64,000 nucleotides of DNA from Morinoia aosen. Lineage: Eukaryota; Arthropoda; Malacostraca; Amphipoda; Talitridae. Under the pieces are notes generated by a model. That model ran no database searches, was not told the origin of the DNA, and saw only the letters and a program-made list of their open reading frames with translations. The translations under genes were made by a program, and so were the position numbers. Positions 21,481-37,427 of the stretch are shown here, in pieces. The first letter of the stretch is position 1. Each line of letters starts with the position of its first letter. The stretch is taken from assembly GCA_030386875.1 (NCBI GenBank), contig CM059563.1, forward strand, positions 45,538,102 to 45,602,101, read 5' to 3'.

Positions 21481-22534
21481 GGCAAGTAAATAATATCCTT
21501 CTAAAAATCAGCTGAATCATTTGTAGAAAATTTTAGGACGCATGCGCAAATCAGCGGAGTAATCTGCACCAAATTTTGCCACGGGATTCCGAATAACGTA
21601 AATAATTTAAAATTAAATTTTTTTCTATCGTTCAAAGACTAGCTAGACAACTGTTGAAAAATTGATCGTGCGCTCTAGGATATTCTAAATAATTGACATG
21701 AAATTTTTGCATGAACTCACAAATGGGCTAAATGAAATCGCCGTGAATTTTGCCAAGTCGTCACCTGACGTCTCAGAGGAGACGCGATTTTGCGTCTCAT
21801 GGTTACGCGCAGAGCGTTACCTAAAATTGACGCAAATTTTTAGCACGAACTTAGGATGTTATTTCACTTACAGAAATGACGCACTGTACATTTTTATCCC
21901 TGCTAAAAAATTCTGAATGCCTTGAAACCAATTTAGGTGAAGTTTTAAAACCGTTCAATTTTGCCTTCTCGAAGTGTTCTATTTTTCGTTCTAAACACAC
22001 TCTATTTTTAATTTTCAAATTTTCTATTTTTTATTTCTAAAGTGCTCTATATTTGGTTTCTGAAGGACTCAATTTTTTATTTTCAAACGATATCCTTTTT
22101 CGTTCACAAAGTTCTCTATTAATTGTTCGGAAACCGCTTTGTTTTTCGCACTCAAAATACAACATTGAAAGGGGACATGTCGCTGCCATAGAACTTCAGC
22201 CACCAACTCACAATACACCGTAACGTTCACGCTCAGTCCCGCTGCCAAAACCTCCGCAGCAGCACACAAGTGCTCACCCCATCTAGTCAGCAGCCCCGAC
22301 CTGACTCAGAGTCTACTGTAGGCGCAATTTTTTAGGTACGATTTGAAATAATTTAATAAGCACCAGCAAAAATTTCGCTGGCTGATCCTTATTAGGAAAT
22401 TTAGGGAGGCGGGAAAAGCTTTTAGACAGAATTGTACATTGAACGTTGACAATTAAGTCTCAAAACGTTTTTTATTAAATCGTTTGATAAAATCAATGGA
22501 ACTTTTAGAGTATTTATCGTTATTTATAAAACAA
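21481..22534. other. No gene recognised
   Basis: AT-rich flank of the large 9-bp array. 'cgttctaaa'/'tttctaaag'-like motifs recur weakly at 21960-22150. Nothing identifiable. Confidence 0.4.
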
Positions 22535-25500
22535 CTTGCGCCACTGACACCACTCGCACCACTCGCACCGCTCGCACCGCTCGCACCGCTCGCACCGCTC
22601 GCACCACTCGCACCACTCGCACCGCTCGCACCGCTCGCACCACTCGCACCGCTCACACCGCTCGCACCGCTCGCACCACTCGCACCGCTCGCACCACTCG
22701 CACCACTCGCACCGCTCGCACCGCTCGCACCGCTCGCACCGCTCGCACCGCTCGCACCACTCGCACCGCTCGCACCGCTCGCACCACTCGCACCACTCGC
22801 ACCGCTCGCACCACTCGCACCGCTCGCACCACTCGCACCGCTCGCACCACTCGCACCACTCGCACCGCTCGCACCGCTCGCACCCCTCGCACCACTCGCA
22901 CCGCTCGCACCGCTCGCACCGCTCGCACCCCTCGCACCGCTCGCACCGCTCGCACCGCTCGCACCCCTCGCACCGCTCGCACCCCTCGCACCGCTCGCAC
23001 CGCTCGCACCGCTCGCACCGCTCGCACCACTCGCACCGCTCGCACCACTCGCACCGCTCGCACCCCTCGCACCGCTCGCACCGCTCGCACCGCTCGCACC
23101 GCTCGCACCGCTCGCACCGCTCGCACCGCTCGCACCGCTCGCACCGCTCGCACCGCTCGCACCGCTCGCACCGCTCGCACCGCTCGCACCCCTCGCACCG
23201 CTCGCACCACTCGCACCGCTCGCACCACTCGCACCGCTCGCACCACTCGCACCGCTCGCACCGCTCGCACCGCTCGCACCACTCGCACCGCTCGCACCAC
23301 TCGCACCGCTCGCACCACTCGCACCCCTCGCACCACTCGCACCCCTCGCACCACTCGCACCGCTCGCATCACTCGCACCCCTCGCACCACTCGCACCGCT
23401 CGCACCACTCGCACCACTCGCACCACTCGCACCCCTCGCACCACTCGCACCGCTCGCACCACTCGCACCCCTCGCACCGCTCGCACCACTCGCACCACTC
23501 GCACCACTCGCACCCCTCGCACCACTCGCACCGCTCGCACCACTCGCACCCCTCGCACCGCTCGCACCACTCGCACCACTCGCACCGCTCGCACCACTCG
23601 CACCGCTCGCACCACTCGCACCGCTCGCACCACTCGCACCGCTCGCACCACTCGCACCGCTCGCACCACTCGCACCGCTCGCACCACTCGCACCGCTCGC
23701 ACCACTCGCACCCCTCGCACCACTCGCACCGCTCGCACCACTCGCACCCCTCGCACCACTCGCACCACTCGCACCCCTCGCACCACTCGCACCGCTCGCA
23801 CCACTCGCACCGCTCGCACCACTCGCACCCCTCGCACCACTCGCACCGCTCGCACCACTCGCACCGCTCGCACCGCTCGCACCACTCGCACCGCTCGCAC
23901 CGCTCGCACCGCTCGCACCACTCGCACCACTCGCACCGCTCGCACCCCTCGCACCACTCGCACCACTCGCACCGCTCGCACCCCTCGCACCGCTCGCACC
24001 GCTCGCACCACTCGCACCCCTCGAACCACTCGCACCGCTCGCACCGCTCGCACCGCTCGCACCACTCGCACCGCTCGCACCACTCGCACCACTCGCACCG
24101 CTCGCACCACTCGCACCACTCGCACCACTCGCACCGCTCGCACCGCTCGCACCGCTCGCACCGCTCGCACCGCTCGCACCACTCGCACCGCTCGCACCGC
24201 TCGCACCGCTCGCACCGCTCGCACCACTCGCACCGCTCGCACCGCTCGCACCACTCGCACCACTCGCACCGCTCGCACCGCTCGCACCGCTCGCACCGCT
24301 CGCACCACTCGCACCGCTCGCACCGCTCGCACCACTCGCACCGCTCGCACCACTCGCACCGCTCGCACCGCTCGCACCACTCGCACCGCTCGCACCACTC
24401 GCACCGCTCGCACCGCTCGCACCACTCGCACCGCTCGCACCACTCGCACCACTCGCACCACTCGCACCGCTCGCACCGCTCGCACCACTCGCACCACTCG
24501 CACCACTCGCACCACTCGCACCACTCGCACCGCTCGCACCGCTCGCACCACTCGCACCGCTCGCACCGCTCGCACCGCTCGCACCGCTCGCACCGCTCGC
24601 ACCGCTCGCACCACTCGCACCACTCGCACCGCTCGCACCCCTCGCACCCCTCGCACCGCTCGCACCGCTCGCACCACTCGCACCCCTCGCACCACTCGCA
24701 CCACTCGCACCACTCGCACCCCTCGCACCACTCGCACCGCTCGCACCACTCGCACCGCTCGCACCACTCGCACCGCTCGCACCGCTCGCACCGCTCGCAC
24801 CGCTCGCACCACTCGCACCGCTCGCACCACTCGCACCACTCGCACCACTCGCACCACTCGCACCGCTCGCACCGCTCGCACCGCTCGCACCGCTCGCACC
24901 GCTCGCACCACTCGCACCACTCGCACCACCCGCACCACTCGCACCGCTCGCACCGCTCGCACCACTCGCACCGCTCGCACCACTCGCACCGCTCGCACCG
25001 CTCGCACCGCTCGCACCACTCGCACCGCTCGCACCACTCGCACCGCTCGCACCGCTCGCACCGCTCGCACCACTCGCACCACTCGCACCCCTCGCACCGC
25101 TCGCACCACTCGCACCGCTCGCACCACTCGCACCGCTCGCACCGCTCGCACCGCTCGCACCGCTCGCACCGCTCGCACCGCTCGCACCACTCGCACCGCT
25201 CGCACCGCTCGCACCGCTCGCACCGCTCGCACCGCTCGCACCGCTCGCACCGCTCGCACCACTCGCACCGCTCGCACCGCTCGCACCACTCGCACCACTC
25301 GCACCACTCGCACCACTCGCACCGCTCGCACCACTCGCACCACTCGCACCACTCGCACCACTCGCACCACTCGCACCACTCGCACCACTCGCACCACTCG
25401 CACCACTCGCACCACTCGCACCGCTCGCACCACTCGCACCACTCGCACCACTCGCACCGCTCGCACCACTCGCACCACTCGCACCACTCGCACCACTCGC

Positions 25501-27349
25501 ACCACTCGCACCGCTCGCACCACTCGCACCACTCGCACCACTCGCACCACTCGCACCGCTCGCACCGCTCGCACCGCTCGCACCGCTCGCACCGCTCGCA
25601 CCGCTCGCACCACTCGCACCGCTCGCACCGCTCGCACCGCTCGCACCGCTCGCACCGCTCGCACCGCTCGCACCACTCGCACCGCTCGCACCGCTCGCAC
25701 CACTCGCACCACTCGCACCACTCGCACCACTCGCACCGCTCGCACCGCTCGCACCGCTCGCACCCCTCGCACCGCTCGCACCACTCGCACCGCTCGCACC
25801 GCTCGCACCGCTCGCACCGCTCGCACCACTCGCACCGCTCGCACCACTCGCACCGCTCGCACCGCTCGCACCACTCGCACCACTCGCACCACTCGCACCA
25901 CTCGCACCACTCGCACCACTCGCACCACTCGCACCGCTCGCACCGCTCGCACCGCTCGCACCGCTCGCACCGCTCGCACCGCTCGCACCGCTCGCACCAC
26001 TCGCACCGCTCGCACCACTCGCACCGCTCGCACCGCTCGCACCACTCGCACCGCTCGCACCACTCGCACCGCTCGCACCACTCGCACCACTCGCACCACT
26101 CGCACCACTCGCACCACTCGCACCACTCGCACCACTCGCACCACTCGCACCACTCGCACCACTCGCACCACTCGCACCCCTCGCACCGCTCGCACCGCTC
26201 GCACCGCTCGCACCACTCGCACCACTCGCACCGCTCGCACCGCTCGCACCGCTCGCACCACTCGCACCACTCGCACCACTCGCACCACTCGCACCACTCG
26301 CACCACTCGCACCACTCGCACCACTCGCACCACTCGCACCACTCGCACCACTCGCACCACTCGCACCACTCGCACCACTCGCACCACTCGCACCCCTCGC
26401 ACCGCTCGCACCGCTCGCACCGCTCGCACCACTCGCACCACTCGCACCACTCGCACCACTCGCACCACTCGCACCGCTCGCACCGCTCGCACCACTCGCA
26501 CCGCTCGCACCGCTCGCACCACTCGCACCCCTCGCACCACTCGCACCACTCGCACCACTCGCACCCCTCGCACCCCTCGCACCACTCGCACCACTCGCAC
26601 CACTCGCACCACTCGCACCACTCGCACCACTCGCACCCCCTCGCACCACTCGCACCACTCGCACCACTCGCACCACTCGCACCACTCGCACCACTCGCAC
26701 CGCTCGCACCCCTCGCACCACTCGCACCACTCGCACCACTCGCACCACTCGCACCACTCGCACCACTCGCACCGCTCGCACCACTCGCACCGCTCGCACC
26801 GCTCGCACCACTCGCACCCCTCGCACCACTCGCACCACTCGCACCACTCGCACCACTCGCACCGCTCGCACCGCTCGCACCGCTCGCACCACTCGCACCC
26901 CTCGCACCACTCGCACCACTCGCACCCCTCGCACCACTCGCACCACTCGCACCACTCGCACCACTCGCACCACTCGCACCGCTCGCACCACTCGCACCAC
27001 TCGCACCGCTCGCACCACTCGCACCGCTCGCACCACTCGCACCACTCGCACCCCTCGCACCACTCGCACCACTCGCACCACTCGCACCACTCGCACCGCT
27101 CGCACCACTCGCACCACCCGCACCGCTCGCACCACTCGCACCGCTCGCACCGCTCGCACCGCTCGCACCACTCGCACCCCTCGCACCACTCGCACCACTC
27201 GCACCACTCGCACCCCTCGCACCACTCGCACCACTCGCACCACTCGCACCACTCGCACCACTCGCACCGCTCGCACCCCTCGCACCACTCGCACCACTCG
27301 CACCACTCGCACCGCTCGCACCACTCGCACCCCTCGCACCACTCGAACA
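22535..27349. repeat. Giant 9-bp minisatellite, unit gcacc[A/G/C]ctc, about 535 copies
   Basis: About 4.8 kb of the 9-bp unit gcaccNctc, where N is nearly always A, G or C; very few other changes occur (for example gcatcactc near 23368, gaacc near 24011, gcacccgc near 24927). One inserted C at about 26636 is the only length change I noticed. Because 9 bp is three codons and no phase contains a stop, frames on both strands stay open for over 1,300 codons (Ala-Pro-Leu forward; Gly-Ala-Ser, Val-Arg-Ala and Cys-Glu-Trp types in reverse). These are not proteins. The first two units are degenerate (cttgcgcca, ctgacacca) and the last reads ctcgaacaa, marking the edges. Confidence 0.97.
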
Positions 27350-28290
27350 ATGAGTAAAATAATAATACAATTCGGTACCCAGGAGAGCACAATTTACCGG
27401 CTAAGAGTTATAAAAAGCGCAAAATAATTCTCATATTCTGTGATCTCGAGCTTAGTTAAGAGACAGATTGGTTACGTACTCTGCTGTGCATTGCGGCCTA
27501 ATGAGCAAATTTCTTCTCTCATATGACAAAGGTGTTGAAAAAATACTGACCAGGCATAGGTGTTGAGACAAATCTGCGTGGTGCCGCTTCCTATGCTACT
27601 GTGCAATGAAATAGGGGCCTGGAATATTCGCCGATTTCTTTTTATTTTATCATTTTTTGTGGCAAATTTGAAATAAAATATTTTGTAATATTGTGTCTGG
27701 GAATTTGATAATTTCATTGCCTTTTTTCTGAGCTGCACAAAATCACAAGTGCATAACGTTTTTTAACCTAAAGCCGACATTTCATGATATTTTAGAGCCG
27801 GGCACATCTTGATGTACTGTTCTTTAGGTTCGCTCATGCCACTCGACTGTCGGTGTTAATGATGACGCTCACGCACAATGGTTTGTGGCTTGATTTCTTT
27901 TAGTCCAAAGCTCAAAAAATAAAAAAAAAAATTAGGAAAAACTACCGGAAAAGCACGAAATTCAGAATACGTTGTTACAAAATCACCAACTACGAGAAAC
28001 ATTTATGTCGTCTCATAACACCAATTCAGGAACTACAAGACGACTGTACGCATAGCCTGTAATAATGACACGGTTGAATATCACAAACTGAGAAGCCCAT
28101 AATTACACGAGGTGTGTTTTTAGTTCTTCATTCCTAAGAGATGAGCAGGGCAGGCGCGCCTTTTGTTGCACGGCGGCCTCCTGTGCTGTGATCTCATTAA
28201 GATTTGCTTCATCCTTGTATTGTGCGTCGGGCCGCCGGTGCTTTGTTTTAATTAGCGCGCAGCTCTTCTGTGCGCGGCGTAGCCCTCTTC
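27350..28290. other. No gene recognised
   Basis: AT-rich DNA to the right of the giant array. The frame at 27472-27738 (minus) has no motif I know. Confidence 0.4.
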
Positions 28291-33528: not shown

Positions 33529-33572
33529 AATTTTAAGTTTATCAAGGTGAATAGTTGACGCCTGGGTTCCAT

Positions 33573-34987
33573 ATTTGCAGTTAGGTTTTTTAAATAACTC
33601 TTCCAGGTTAAAATATATATTAGGCCAAGCTTTCGAACTCACAAGTGGAGTTCGTCAACAGGGCTGAAACATTCACAAGAGCTGGACGCATATGGCTACA
33701 CACGTACGTATCTATGATACAGTTTTTTTAACCCTTTCGGTCCTGACGGCTACTCCAGTGCCAAGTTGGCTAGTGCTTCCAGTTTAGGGCATCTAACCTA
33801 GTTTTAAACTAATTTAACTAGTGAGGGAATATTTTGGAGTAATAACAAAATTAGGGAAATTACAAACATTCATTAAACTAGTTTTTAAACAATTCCAGAA
33901 ACCTGCACGCGTAAACTACCATAGGTTACCATAGGCCCCTGTAATTACCATAGGACCCTGTAGCACGCGTAAGTTCATGCTACAGAACCCGAGCAACATA
34001 TTCAATACCCTTTCCATTTAACTTGAGCAAGTTTTTTCTGAACTTTGTTGATTTTTGGTAAATTCGGGCAAAAACGTATAAATAATTTCTTCGTAAATAC
34101 GAAAACTTTATTATCAACATCAAAAATTTCTGTCGCCAAGCATCGAGCTTCAAAGATACAAAAAATTTCAAAATTAAAATAATGAAGAAGGCACTTACTT
34201 AAGCTAAAAGCACCACACTAGGACAATTTCACTGACAATTCAGGGTAATGACAACTTTTTCCCCTGGAAGTTTTTACCCAAACAATTTGAATTATCGTAC
34301 CGAAAGGGTTAAAGTAATTATTATTAAGCGGGCTTCTACTTGGTACTGACATCATTCCAAGCACATACGCTGTCATTTTGGAGGTAATAATTCATCTATT
34401 ATCGGGAAATAACATGGGGGATATCTTGTCTTCTATTAATTGATGCGGAATTTTACCTAGAGTAGCACGCTTCTACGAATTTTCTTGACATTGTTTTCGA
34501 CTCCGTTGCTAAAATATTAAAATTTTCGATATTCATTTAGTGACCAGTTTCTTGCTGGTGTTGGGAAACGTTACTTGTTATTTATCGGAGCTGAATTGAA
34601 CGTGTATGTTCCTCAATGCGTTACTTCGCTGTTCTCCCAGTCTCTCCTATGTATGATGCTGCACATTGCTTGCAGTCAATTTAGTATACAACATTTTTTC
34701 TCTCTTCCTTGGACCTTTTATCTTTCAATTTACAAAGTTGATTTTTCAGACTATGAGTGGATTTACTACAAAGCACAATATCCAATGGTTTGAGAATTTT
34801 TGCCACTCTTTCTGTGACCCCGTTAATATAAGGTACTGAAACAAATTTTCTACCATCGCTTGATGCTGCTGGAGGCATGGCTGGTTTTGTGACTAAAGTT
34901 ACTGATTTTTATATAATTTCAGAGGGGTATCCATTATTTCGTAGTTGTTTCTTTAACAAATTCAATTCTTGGATTTTATCAGTTTCT
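33573..34987 (-). repeat. Left inverted arm of the Penelope-like element
   Basis: This is the reverse complement of 36264-37102, with scattered substitutions. It holds a minus-strand copy of the endonuclease end of the protein: frames at 34681-34878 repeat those at 36373-36570. Comparing the arms gives mostly amino-acid-level single changes (for example Lys/Glu, Ser/Cys, Asn/Lys, Val/Ala, Ile/Met). All six TAA codons of the shared coding part are kept in both. A C-run is five long here (34416-34420) against six in the right arm (36831-36836). The arm is split by a TTAA MITE. Confidence 0.92.
33732..34308. mobile_element. piggyBac-type MITE inserted in the Penelope arm
   Basis: A 577-bp insertion absent from the other arm. 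It is bordered by TTAA on both sides (33728-33731 and 34309-34312), with terminal inverted repeats ccctttcggt / accgaaaggg. TTAA duplication with a C-C-rich terminus is the hallmark of piggyBac-type elements. It has no transposase; the small minus-strand frame at 33980-34171 is not recognisable. Inside is a short tandem 'taccataggcccctgtaatt' / 'accataggaccctgtag' with 'cacgcgtaa' on both sides. Comparison with the right arm shows the pre-insertion target as a T-run followed by 'aaagtaatt'. Confidence 0.9.
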
Positions 34988-34989
34988 GC

Positions 34990-36879
34990 CGAGGACTGAA
35001 TTTTACAACGAAGCACAACAAACAAGATAAAATTTCCTTTCTTGCAAATGTGGAAAGTGCCTTAAAATAAAAAAGAAATCTTCCTGAAGATCAAAAAGAG
35101 CGAATTCGTCAATAAATTGCTTCTTCTATCGCCAGTGTCAAATAAAAACACAATCTACTCCCGGAGGAAAGAAATGCCCTTAGAGCCCTAAAATAAGATA
35201 GCTCAATATCTATAGTTCCGGCAGATAAAGGCCGCACCACGGTTGTGATCGACACCTGTGATTACAAAGAAAAAATTGCGGACCACCTAAATGATGCCAC
35301 TACGTATCAACTGATTGGGAGAAGTGACTAATCTAATAATGTCAACCAAACGGTGCAAAGGAAATTAAACAAAATTTTAAAATCTTTAAAAAATAGCTAA
35401 ATCATGTCAGAGGAATAGCACAGGTACCTTTACGCAAATTCAGCAGTAGTCCCTCTATTTTACGCAACAATAAAAATTCATAAAATAGGTTTCCCAATCA
35501 GACCAATTGTATCATTCATTGATACACCTACATACCGTACAGCCTAATTCCCTTCTAAGCTCCTCACCCCTACTTCGAACAGAGCAGAGTAAAAAATAAA
35601 GCACACCCCAGAAGTAGTAAATATGGTCTCATCTCTGACCATCCCTGCTGATTATTCACTCGTCTCGTTCGACGTTAAAAATTTATTTACAAGCATTCCT
35701 TTAAACTTAGCTATCGAAAGCGTACGAACCTTAATCAGTGAAGATGACACCCTTGTTGAGAGAACATGTCTTAACCCTACTGAAATTTTAAATCTGGTCA
35801 AATGCTGTTTGAAAGCCAGTATTTTTCAATATAATGGATCCCTCTACAGACAAATCAAAGGTGTACCTATGGGATCTCCGGTGTCCGTTGTCGTAGCAGA
35901 GCTTACGATGTAGCTTCTGGAAAGGAAGATCTTTGAAGCCCCTCCCGTCTAGCCCATCTCTTGGAAACGTTTTGTGGATGATTGTTTAACAGCACTACCA
36001 ACGACGTCAATTGAAACCTTCCTAAACCATATAAACTCCTTTGATTAATGCATATAATTTACAGCAGAAGTAGAAAAGGACAACTAAATCCCATTCCTAG
36101 ACGTTTTAATTCACCGTCAACCAAGTGGATAACTGAAATGCACAGTTTACCGTAAACCAACGACAAATGACCGTTACCTGGACTTCGAAAGTTATAACCC
36201 CTTGTAATATGAATTGAGCACGTTCAAAACCTTATAACGAAGAGCGTTCTCGATTTGCACAGAAGAAACTGATAAAATCCAAGAATTGAATTTGTTAAAG
36301 AAACAACTACGAAATAATGGATACCCCTCTAAAATTATATAAAAATCAGCAACTTTAGTCACAAAACCAGCTATGCCTCCAGCAGCGTCGAGCGATGGTA
36401 GAAAATTTGTTTCAGTACCTTATATTAACGGAGTCACAGAAAGAGTGGCAAAAATTCTCAAACCATTGGATATTGTGCTTTGTAGTAAATGCACTCATAG
36501 TCTGAAAAATCAACTTTGTAAATTGAAAGATAAAAGGTCCAAGGAAGAGAGAAAAAATGTTGTATACTAAATTGACTGCAACCAATGTGCAGCATCATAC
36601 ATAGGAGAGACGGGGAGAACAGCGAAGTAACGCATTGAGGAACATACACGTTCAATTCAGCTCCGATAAATAACAAGTAACGTTTCCCAACACCAGCAAG
36701 AAACTGGTCACTAAATGAATATCGAAAATTTTAATATTTTAGTAACGGACTCGAAAACAATATCAAGAAAATTCGTAGAAGCGTGCTACTCTAGGTAAAA
36801 TTCCGCATCAATTAATAGAAGACAAGATATCCCCCCATGTTATTTCCCGATAATAAATAAATTATTACCTCCAAAATGA
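34990..36879 (+). CDS. Penelope-like reverse transcriptase + GIY-YIG endonuclease, readable only if TAA/TAG are sense
   Basis: One uninterrupted frame of 629 codons before the first TGA (36877-36879). In order: 'RGLNFTTKHNKQDKISFLAN' (PLE N-terminal 'GLNF' block, ~34990); 'SISIVPADKGRTTVVIDTCD' (~35200-35260); 'PLFYATIKIHKIGFPIRPIV' (~35452); palm motif A 'LVSFDVKNLFTSIP' with catalytic Asp at 35671-35673; 'IKGVPMGSPVSVVVAELTM' (~35854); motif C 'FVDDC' (Asp-Asp at 35977-35982); 'IPFLDVLIHR' and 'VYRKPTTNDRYLD'; then the endonuclease 'DCNQCAASYIGETGR' (~36574), 'QETGH' and 'KFVEACYSR'. The frame crosses 23 codons TAA (20) or TAG (3), no TGA and no indel; 18 Gln codons are CAA/CAG. The N-terminus is cut at the inverted-arm junction. 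The C-terminal end depends on a C-run (6 here, 5 in the other arm). With the standard code this would be a pseudogene. Confidence 0.85.
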
Positions 36880-37102
36880 CAGCGTATGTGCTTGGAATGA
36901 TGTCAGTACCAAGTAGAAGCCCGCTTAATAATAATTACTTTGAAAAAACTGTATCGTAGATACGTACGTGTGTAGCCATATGCGTCCAGCTCTTGTGAAT
37001 GTTTCAGCCCTGATGACGAACTCCACTTGTGAGTTCGAAAGCTTGGCATAATATATATTTTAATCTGGAAGAGTTATTTAAAAAAAAAACCTAACTGCAA
37101 AT
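36264..37102 (+). repeat. Right arm of the Penelope-like element
   Basis: 3' end of the element: endonuclease coding part, then about 220 bp of 3' untranslated DNA with 'tccacttgtgagttcgaaag' and 'gccatatgcgtccagctctt', ending in an A-run and 'cctaactgcaaat'. Nearly identical in inverted orientation to the left arm. Confidence 0.92.
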
Positions 37103-37427
37103 TTTAAGTTTGTTTCAACGATGCGCTTCTCATTAAAATACAAGCCTCTCTACTGTGGTATACGCTTATAGTTGTGTGCAGTGCACATCGTCGGACGTTG
37201 GCATGATGTCTCGAAATTTTTACGTCAGGATAGAAGCATCGATTCAGAGCATCGGGATTGAAGCTTTCGTACTGTGATTCTGCTCGCTCACCAATCTCAA
37301 TCTGCAGTGCTCATTCATGTTGAAAAATGCAACATTTCCATATCTGCTCCCGATTGCAAAATTTTAGATTCATCTTCAATTCTGAACGATCTCAGGACTT
37401 CAAAGTTTGTAAGCATTTTCAAGTGAA

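Follow-up and report, generated by a model that had tools for sequence, protein, structure and literature searches.

Can a retrotransposon in an animal with the standard genetic code be written in a code of its own? The question is raised by a window of 64,000 nucleotides (the whole stretch of DNA that was analyzed, to which the position numbers of the window copy below refer) from the amphipod Morinoia aosen (assembly GCA_030386875.1, contig CM059563.1, positions 45,538,102 to 45,602,101 of the forward strand), which holds a Penelope-like element (PLE) with a long coding frame full of TAA and TAG codons and devoid of TGA. The initial annotation of this locus had proposed that UAA and UAG (together UAR) stand for glutamine (Gln) in this element, through either an origin in a foreign lineage with such a code or recoding in the host. 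Read at the sequence level, at least three PLE families in this standard-code arthropod, designated A (the family of the window copy), B and F, use UAA and UAG as Gln codons and UGA as the only stop. On the evidence assembled below, they are probably also translated as such in this host.

Coding frame of the window copy

The forward-strand frame at 34990–36876 comprised 629 codons in which RT (reverse transcriptase) precedes GIY-YIG, with 20 TAA, 3 TAG and no TGA up to the one at 36877–36879 that closes it; on re-reading, the composition originally reported for this frame was reproduced. Pfam recognized RVT_1 (E 1.8e-7, above the cut-off) followed by GIY-YIG (E 0.014, below the cut-off), in agreement with the PLE reverse transcriptase and endonuclease described earlier. 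The extent first given, 34990–36879, holds for the frame and not for a whole protein: the copy is 5′-truncated at about 34988, and its frame corresponds to codons 171–799 of the full-length frame, full-length copies having 799 codons. The closing TGA was conserved in all 73 aligned family A segments that were readable at that position (codon 800). No relative of the PLE protein was found among solved structures at E ≤ 0.1.

Three UAR-rich families in the genome

The genome searched comprised 1.99 Gb in 29 contigs. At the DNA level, family A had at least 56 matches at 96–100% identity, the window copy included. At the protein level there were at least 71 scored matches, every one with in-frame UAR codons and six with TGA; these counts are lower bounds, because only 70 of 17,657 first-look candidates were scored, and neighboring partial copies were counted separately. 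A full-length copy (L016) ran for 799 codons from ATG to TGA with 40 UAR codons. The alignment of family A was built from fetched loci rather than from all matches, and its 78 distinct genomic segments (103,622 bases) contained 1374 UAR codons against five TGA codons, each TGA in a separate segment. Eight segments spanned at least 2340 of the 2400 bases, and four of the eight had neither an indel nor an inner TGA; two of these four began at the ATG, and the other two, which began 41 bases later, were a near-identical pair on contig C7 (1 difference in 2359). The copy first described is therefore not alone, family A being dispersed over many contigs and joined by families B and F, and such dispersed multi-copy families rule out a single aberrant copy or a contaminant.

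Family B was first met as a more remote copy with the same code in the flank of two loci (L054/L057). Its full frame had 793 codons with 38 UAR (31 TAA and 7 TAG), that of family F 801 codons with 35 UAR (24 TAA and 11 TAG); neither had an inner TGA, and both fetched frames were closed by TGA. In A, B and F, each of the five alternative reading frames of the coding sequence contained 9–30 TGA, against none in the coding frame. UGA as a sense codon, in the style of the selenocysteine PLEs, was looked for within the three representatives and did not occur. With UAR masked, the families were 45–46% identical in pairs (324/720, 328/723 and 332/721), and both A and B aligned with F over the whole length. 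RVT_1 was above the Pfam cut-off in all three, and GIY-YIG, with a cut-off of 22.6 bits, scored above it in F (24.8) and below it in B (21.5) and A (18.6).

The search with family B returned 6–9 UAR codons in each of 150 scored matches and TGA in five of them. Eighteen matches on 10 contigs shared the top protein score, which suggests that B was recently active. Likewise, a 150-residue query from family A, taken close to the RT start, found UAR in 150 of 150 scored matches and TGA in six; the matches fell into identity groups of roughly 86–96% (family A), 50–53% and 43–49%, and places fetched from the two lower groups yielded B and F. In an unrooted tree of six sequences, a branch with a support of 0.995 split A, B and F from the standard-code PLE families C, D and E, of which D and E were partial.

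Selection on the coding frame

Family A variants were tallied per locus under UAR = Gln, over 46 loci of which two duplicate pairs were subsequently merged. Those confined to one locus comprised 136 synonymous, 333 nonsynonymous and five TGA changes, spread over the three codon positions as 165/138/171. Variants in two or three loci numbered 27 synonymous and 43 nonsynonymous (positions 25/19/26), while those in at least four loci were 28 synonymous and 23 nonsynonymous (positions 17/4/30), neither class including a TGA. In segment-level tests, variants shared by four or more differed from private ones in codon position (p = 8.8e-4) and in the synonymous to nonsynonymous ratio (p = 2.5e-4); for two or three against private, p was 0.03. 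In a tree built from 43 of the 78 aligned segments, branches leading to at least four tips had 20 synonymous and 13 nonsynonymous changes (positions 12/1/20), branches with two or three tips 18 and 26, and the tips themselves 116 and 241, plus two TGA. A 123-codon piece of family B, compared over 20 copies with two further fetched copies of other length left out, had nine synonymous and six nonsynonymous shared variants and 11 synonymous, 21 nonsynonymous and three TGA single variants.

Frameshifting indels in family A were private in 43 cases and shared in three. Two of the shared ones fell close to the frame's end, at bases 2351 and 2356, and one of these two occurred in five loci; the third, at base 2072, occurred in two loci. 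About 11 shared frameshifts (43 × 121/474) would be expected if they were shared at the rate of substitutions. Because widely shared variants favor synonymous changes and third positions, and shared frameshifts are scarce, the variant record shows that, in the deeper history of family A, the protein of this frame was under purifying selection with UAR read as sense.

The same record also sets bounds to this conclusion. Variants in two or three loci and branches with two or three tips were close to neutral, the selection signal was strong only for variants in many loci, and by these counts the latest history of A cannot be clearly told from neutral evolution. It is also conceivable that the shared variants date from a donor organism.

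Amino acid encoded by UAR

The identity of the encoded residue was assessed from alignment columns across A, B and F. In 223 pair comparisons at UAR columns, the partner was another UAR 40 times against 10.5 expected (3.8-fold) and CAA or CAG (CAR) 23 times against 7.7 (3.0-fold), whereas lysine (Lys) occurred 28 times against 19.6 (1.4-fold), serine (Ser) 24 against 16.9 (1.4-fold) and glutamate (Glu) 22 against 13.4 (1.6-fold). Conversely, in 163 comparisons at CAR columns, UAR was found 23 times against 7.7 expected (3.0-fold) and CAR 18 times against 5.6 (3.2-fold). Residue profiles derived from the same alignment placed Gln ahead of asparagine by 38.8 nats, Glu by 50.8, Lys by 54.5 and Ser by 55.9. 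True Lys columns were conserved as Lys in 192 of 416 comparisons, as against the 28 of 223 in which a UAR column was paired with Lys. Among copies of family A, TAA and CAA interchanged at codons 576 (46/14) and 678 (19/46), and TAG and TAA at codons 143 (9/5), 313 (31/5) and 717 (47/21). The share of UAR in all Gln codons (UAR + CAR) was 0.67, 0.54 and 0.54 in A, B and F, similar to the share of TTA and TTG among TTR + CTR leucine codons (0.57, 0.55 and 0.60; R is A or G), indicating that UAR is not avoided.

Several comparisons pull the other way. By BLOSUM62 alone, Lys and Gln tied across A, B and F (47.5 and 47.1), as did Ser and Gln at the UAR columns when only A and B were compared. When the comparison was with C and D, remote families in the standard code, the UAR columns fitted Lys better than Gln, and the corresponding profile test ranked background (−316.9), Lys (−317.5) and Gln (−320.0) within about 3 nats of one another. 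There were also shared differences that are nonsynonymous under UAR = Gln: in A, TAA/AAA at codon 759 (22/49) and TTA/TAA at codon 626 (59/4); in the B fragment, TAA/AAA at codon 32 (13/7).

Taken over the A, B and F alignment, Gln is the best reading of UAR. The assignment originally put forward for the window copy is borne out by the column statistics, by the interchange of TAA with CAA and with TAG, and by the codon-position patterns of the shared variants. The Gln enrichment that it predicted at UAR columns was found across the three families, and the mixture of sense codons with TGA and frameshifts that would mark ordinary decay was not what related copies displayed.

Code of host genes and other retroelements

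The standard code was used by the sampled host genes, by other retroelements and by PLE family C. Among 115 hits of the cuticle family Chitin_bind_4, which we take to mark the genome as that of an arthropod, 111 were stop-free, two had TAG and two TGA. The canonical eRF1 gene on contig C6 gave nine exon matches without UAR, eight of them stop-free and the ninth, a short one, with one TGA. Of the best 150 of 52,382 first-look RVT_1 candidates, 135 were stop-free, 13 had one or two UAR and three had TGA, one having both. Family C was represented by one fetched copy (C6:10397700–10400600, L117), with an 860-codon stop-to-stop frame closed by TAA and about 27% identity to A (191/696).

A GIY-YIG family search gave 85 matches. 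Outside contig C27, 24 of them lay in stop-free open frames of 627–860 codons, so that the genome has apparently intact standard-code PLE copies as well as the UAR families. The strongest GIY-YIG matches in the genome were at C27:57409264–72625700, three with open frames of 602–614 codons; bacterial sequence, possibly of associated bacteria, seems to be part of this contig. These C27 frames are, we presume, UvrC-like in size. A genome search with the insect odorant-receptor family gave no hit, nor did its search control. No relatives of the UAR families were confirmed in viral or prokaryote contigs in a search that reached close relatives only.

Candidate components of a decoding system

If the UAR families were translated under UAR = Gln while their lineages multiplied within this genome, as we infer, some host cells would decode UAR as Gln efficiently enough to get through 35–40 such codons per message. 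The cells concerned would probably belong to the germ line, because heritable transposition must happen there. The simplest way to achieve this would combine a UUA-anticodon tRNA charged with Gln and reduced release at UAR, and the genome offers one candidate for each part, a Gln-like tRNA (UUA) on contig C23 and a second eRF1 on contig C16.

Gln-tRNA-like loci numbered 37, with anticodons UUG in 12, CUG in 23 and UUA in one, the anticodon of one more not being called. The UUA locus (C23:18361475–18361546; L075, L078) was the only genome match to a Gln-type UUA/CUA pattern, for which a reversed control gave none, and no second copy was found at the sensitivity of the search used. It keeps T73, a downstream T-run and an acceptor stem with all seven pairs formed despite changes from the ordinary gene. 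Other features count against a working tRNA: the anticodon stem has a mismatch, the variable loop has three bases, there is an extra base, the score was 30.9–32.1 bits (gathering score 29) against 67–70 for four ordinary Gln tRNAs, and the sequence folded no better than shuffled versions. On these grounds the locus may be a pseudogene. For the Gln suppressor tRNA that the initial annotation had suggested looking for, there is hence one UUA locus of the right type and of doubtful quality; the search was confined to tRNAs of the Gln type. A suppressor tRNA encoded by the elements themselves was rejected, ARAGORN having found none in the window or in 15 fetched element loci. At C25:34.22–36.51 Mb, tRNA-Gln genes with the anticodons CUG and UUG form a large cluster.

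The second, divergent eRF1 gene had 333 codons at C16:35503686–35504684 (L124), up to a GTGAGA donor-like site, and had a further exon match at 35508089–35508271 (L127). Both fetched exon stretches were open, and the GC content at third codon positions of exon 1 was 0.70. Pfam domains eRF1_1, eRF1_2 and eRF1_3 were all above the cut-off, and the best match among solved structures was eRF1 (1dt9, E 3e-77), with 134 of 329 residues identical to the human protein. The predicted product retains T32, S33, E55, NIKS, Y125, C127, F131 and GGQ, and carries the changes G31N, T58K, R65D, N121P, T122R, S123F, L124I, L126D, D128G, N129K and K130S, none of which occurred in two fetched exons of the canonical gene.

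In one study, human eRF1 with four residues changed had 80% release at UGA, as against 0% at both UAA and UAG (PMC4698671); Table 1 there prints the changes as T112Q, S123F, L124M and L126F, and the text as Q122FM(Y)F126. The same four positions are changed in the C16 gene (R122, F123, I124 and D126), S123F being common to both proteins (PMC4698671). According to an extract of another study, position 126 (yeast 123) sets the choice of stop, isoleucine or valine going with UAA/UAG and phenylalanine, alanine, Ser or glycine with UGA; the aspartate of the C16 protein is not among the residues named in that extract (PMC4482090). On eRF1 duplicates in animals, the literature search pointed to PMC5304391 and PMC3359775. 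In difference from the UGA-only eRF1 of ciliates, the C16 gene sits beside a canonical eRF1, and in an animal.

The C16 gene is on this basis a candidate for a UGA-biased release factor, whose link to the PLEs is one that we infer. Two observations speak against such a role, namely that the frame meets a TGA right after codon 333 and that a canonical eRF1 is also present in the host (C6); because of the donor-like site there, the TGA is read as lying in a predicted intron. That the C23 tRNA and the C16 eRF1 together do the decoding is offered as a tentative hypothesis, which may well prove wrong. The fuller scenario is a facultative second code, probably of the germ line, in which a UGA-only C16 eRF1 and the C23 tRNA-Gln(UUA) would make UAR a Gln codon, and the retrotransposons, having shifted all of their coding capacity into that code, would have their proteins made only there; this is conceivable, and we hold it rather doubtful.

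Insertion anatomy of the window copy

The insertion is bounded by identical 10-bp target-site duplications, TTTTAAGTTT at 33531–33540 on the left and the same 10 bp at 37102–37111 on the right. Next to the left duplication lies a 32-bp tail (33541–33572, reverse strand), read directly as the start of full-length family A copies, ATG and first codons, in reverse complement. It is followed on the reverse strand, at 33573–33731, by the inverted, pLTR-like terminal-repeat stretch of the left partial copy, which is 94.5% identical to 36940–37102 over 163 columns. The remainder of the inverted partial family A copy, corresponding to the 3′ part of the coding region, occupies 34311–34987 (reverse strand; 97.8% identity to 36264–36941 over 678 columns) and was also among the genome-wide family A DNA matches. 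Downstream of the closing TGA, the 3′ terminal repeat at 36880–37101 (forward strand) was 94% like the stretch directly upstream of the ATG in the full-length copy L016. The terminal repeats, inverted partial copy, tail and target-site duplication are described from the window copy and L016, both of family A. Sequence comparison placed a nested insertion, outside the PLE proper, at 33728–34312 between TTAACCCTTTCGG and CCGAAAGGGTTAA. It is a TTAA-flanked transposon with the ends CCCTTTCGG and CCGAAAGGG within the left inverted PLE copy, presumably piggyBac-like. Over the window stretch and four loci, no Rfam RNA, hammerhead included, exceeded its gathering score.

Elsewhere in the window, four other frames open except for UAR were scanned. 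Two were without a Pfam match, the third had weak zinc-finger matches below the cut-off, and the fourth had an RT match inside a standard open frame. At about 22450–27424 all six frames were open for more than 1300 codons, probably as a result of a long array of short repeats.

Alternative explanations

The families might instead be foreign-code relics, which evolved in a UAR = Gln organism such as a ciliate or other protist living with the arthropod, entered repeatedly, could not be translated and were copied in trans by standard-code PLE enzymes, for example those of family C. This history is unlikely, though it deserves serious weight: protists of this kind use UAR = Gln and stop at UGA (table 6), the same genome contains an intact-frame PLE in the standard code, the variants in two or three loci are near neutral, and the bacterial-looking sequence in the assembly means that the sample may have included organisms besides the host. 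It would nevertheless require at least three separate entries, A, B and F being 45–46% identical, and enough entries per family to bring in the selected shared variants of A. Copies of these families are, besides, numerous and dispersed over many contigs. Copying in trans should moreover have spread frameshifted and TGA-bearing masters, whereas three shared frameshifts were found against about 11 expected and no shared TGA, and family C, the proposed helper, is only about 27% identical to A. The two mechanisms considered in the initial annotation, foreign lineage and host recoding, are not separated decisively by these points; host decoding is the one favored here.

UAR might also be sense but stand for another residue, Lys, Ser or a near-cognate mixture. 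The Lys that tops the UAR columns against remote C and D, the BLOSUM62 ties of Gln with Lys (A, B and F) and with Ser (A vs. B), and the TAA/AAA alternatives shared among copies at A codon 759 and B-fragment codon 32 would all suit this reading. We nevertheless think it improbable, given the threefold enrichment of CAR at UAR columns against 1.4-fold for Lys, the far stronger Lys conservation of true Lys columns, the lead of the Gln profile over Lys (54.5 nats) and Ser (55.9 nats), and the interchange of TAA and CAA at two codons, with at least 14 copies on each side.

Ordinary decay, by which C-to-T changes would have turned Gln codons into stops in dead copies of one ancestor, has practically no chance of being correct. 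C>T and G>A were indeed the commonest private changes, and CAA/CAG to TAA/TAG is of that type; the three representatives nevertheless had no coding-frame TGA despite 8–12 CGA codons each, the two CGA-to-TGA changes in A were both private, half of the eight longest A segments were free of indels and inner TGA, the same design recurs in families 45–46% identical, and the shared variants are under selection. Decay and hypermutation are alike ruled out by the lack of shared TGA and by the codon-position pattern. An assembly or contamination artefact, to which the C27 GIY-YIG matches with long bacterial-looking open frames lend some color by showing that the assembly is not clean, can be dismissed: copies are spread over many contigs of chromosome size on which host tRNAs, cuticle-protein genes or eRF1 are also found, the judgement on chimeric assembly resting on this dispersal, and a target-site duplication and a nested transposon accompany the window copy.

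With these alternatives weighed, and judged from sequence comparisons, translation of the A, B and F group in this host is likely.

Relation to known systems and implications

The closest known elements are the endonuclease-bearing animal PLEs of the Penelope/Poseidon type. A, B and F share with these an RT followed by GIY-YIG within a single frame of some 800 codons, and family A also shares the terminal repeats, inverted partial 5′ copy, short tail and target duplication of about 10 bp. Such anatomy, including a 31-bp tail, is described for Penelope of Adineta vaga in the published account (PMC3846280). The UAR families differ from Penelope-type PLEs in carrying 35–40 in-frame UAR codons as Gln, with UGA as the sole stop. 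This assignment is the same as in the ciliate-type nuclear code (NCBI table 6), with the difference that here it is found in a mobile-element group, the sampled genes of the genome using the standard code. Naiad PLEs read the stop codon UGA as sense (selenocysteine) at a few sites; they are alike in reading a stop as sense and differ in that here UAR is read at 35–40 sites and UGA stops. Phages with recoded stop codons are known in standard-code bacteria, some with a suppressor tRNA. The PLE families resemble them in having a mobile-element code unlike that of the host, and differ in being eukaryotic retrotransposons without a tRNA detected by ARAGORN in 15 element loci.

To our knowledge, stop-codon reassignment has not been described in the nuclear genome of any animal, nor has any group of eukaryotic transposons been described with a code unlike that of its host. 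In the open-licence literature, screened by title and start of abstract (most subscription journals and preprints being beyond reach), there was neither case, nor a PLE with in-frame UAR as Gln. As far as is known, a code difference from the host is undescribed for an animal transposon, while the elements are PLEs by structure and recoded mobile elements are known in phages.

What these families mean depends on where they were translated. If they are untranslated in this host, they bear witness to transposons having passed repeatedly from a UAR = Gln organism into an arthropod. If they are translated in the host, animal cells can pass 35–40 stops per message, a facultative change of code becomes directly testable, and the transposons would gain a cell-type-specific lock.

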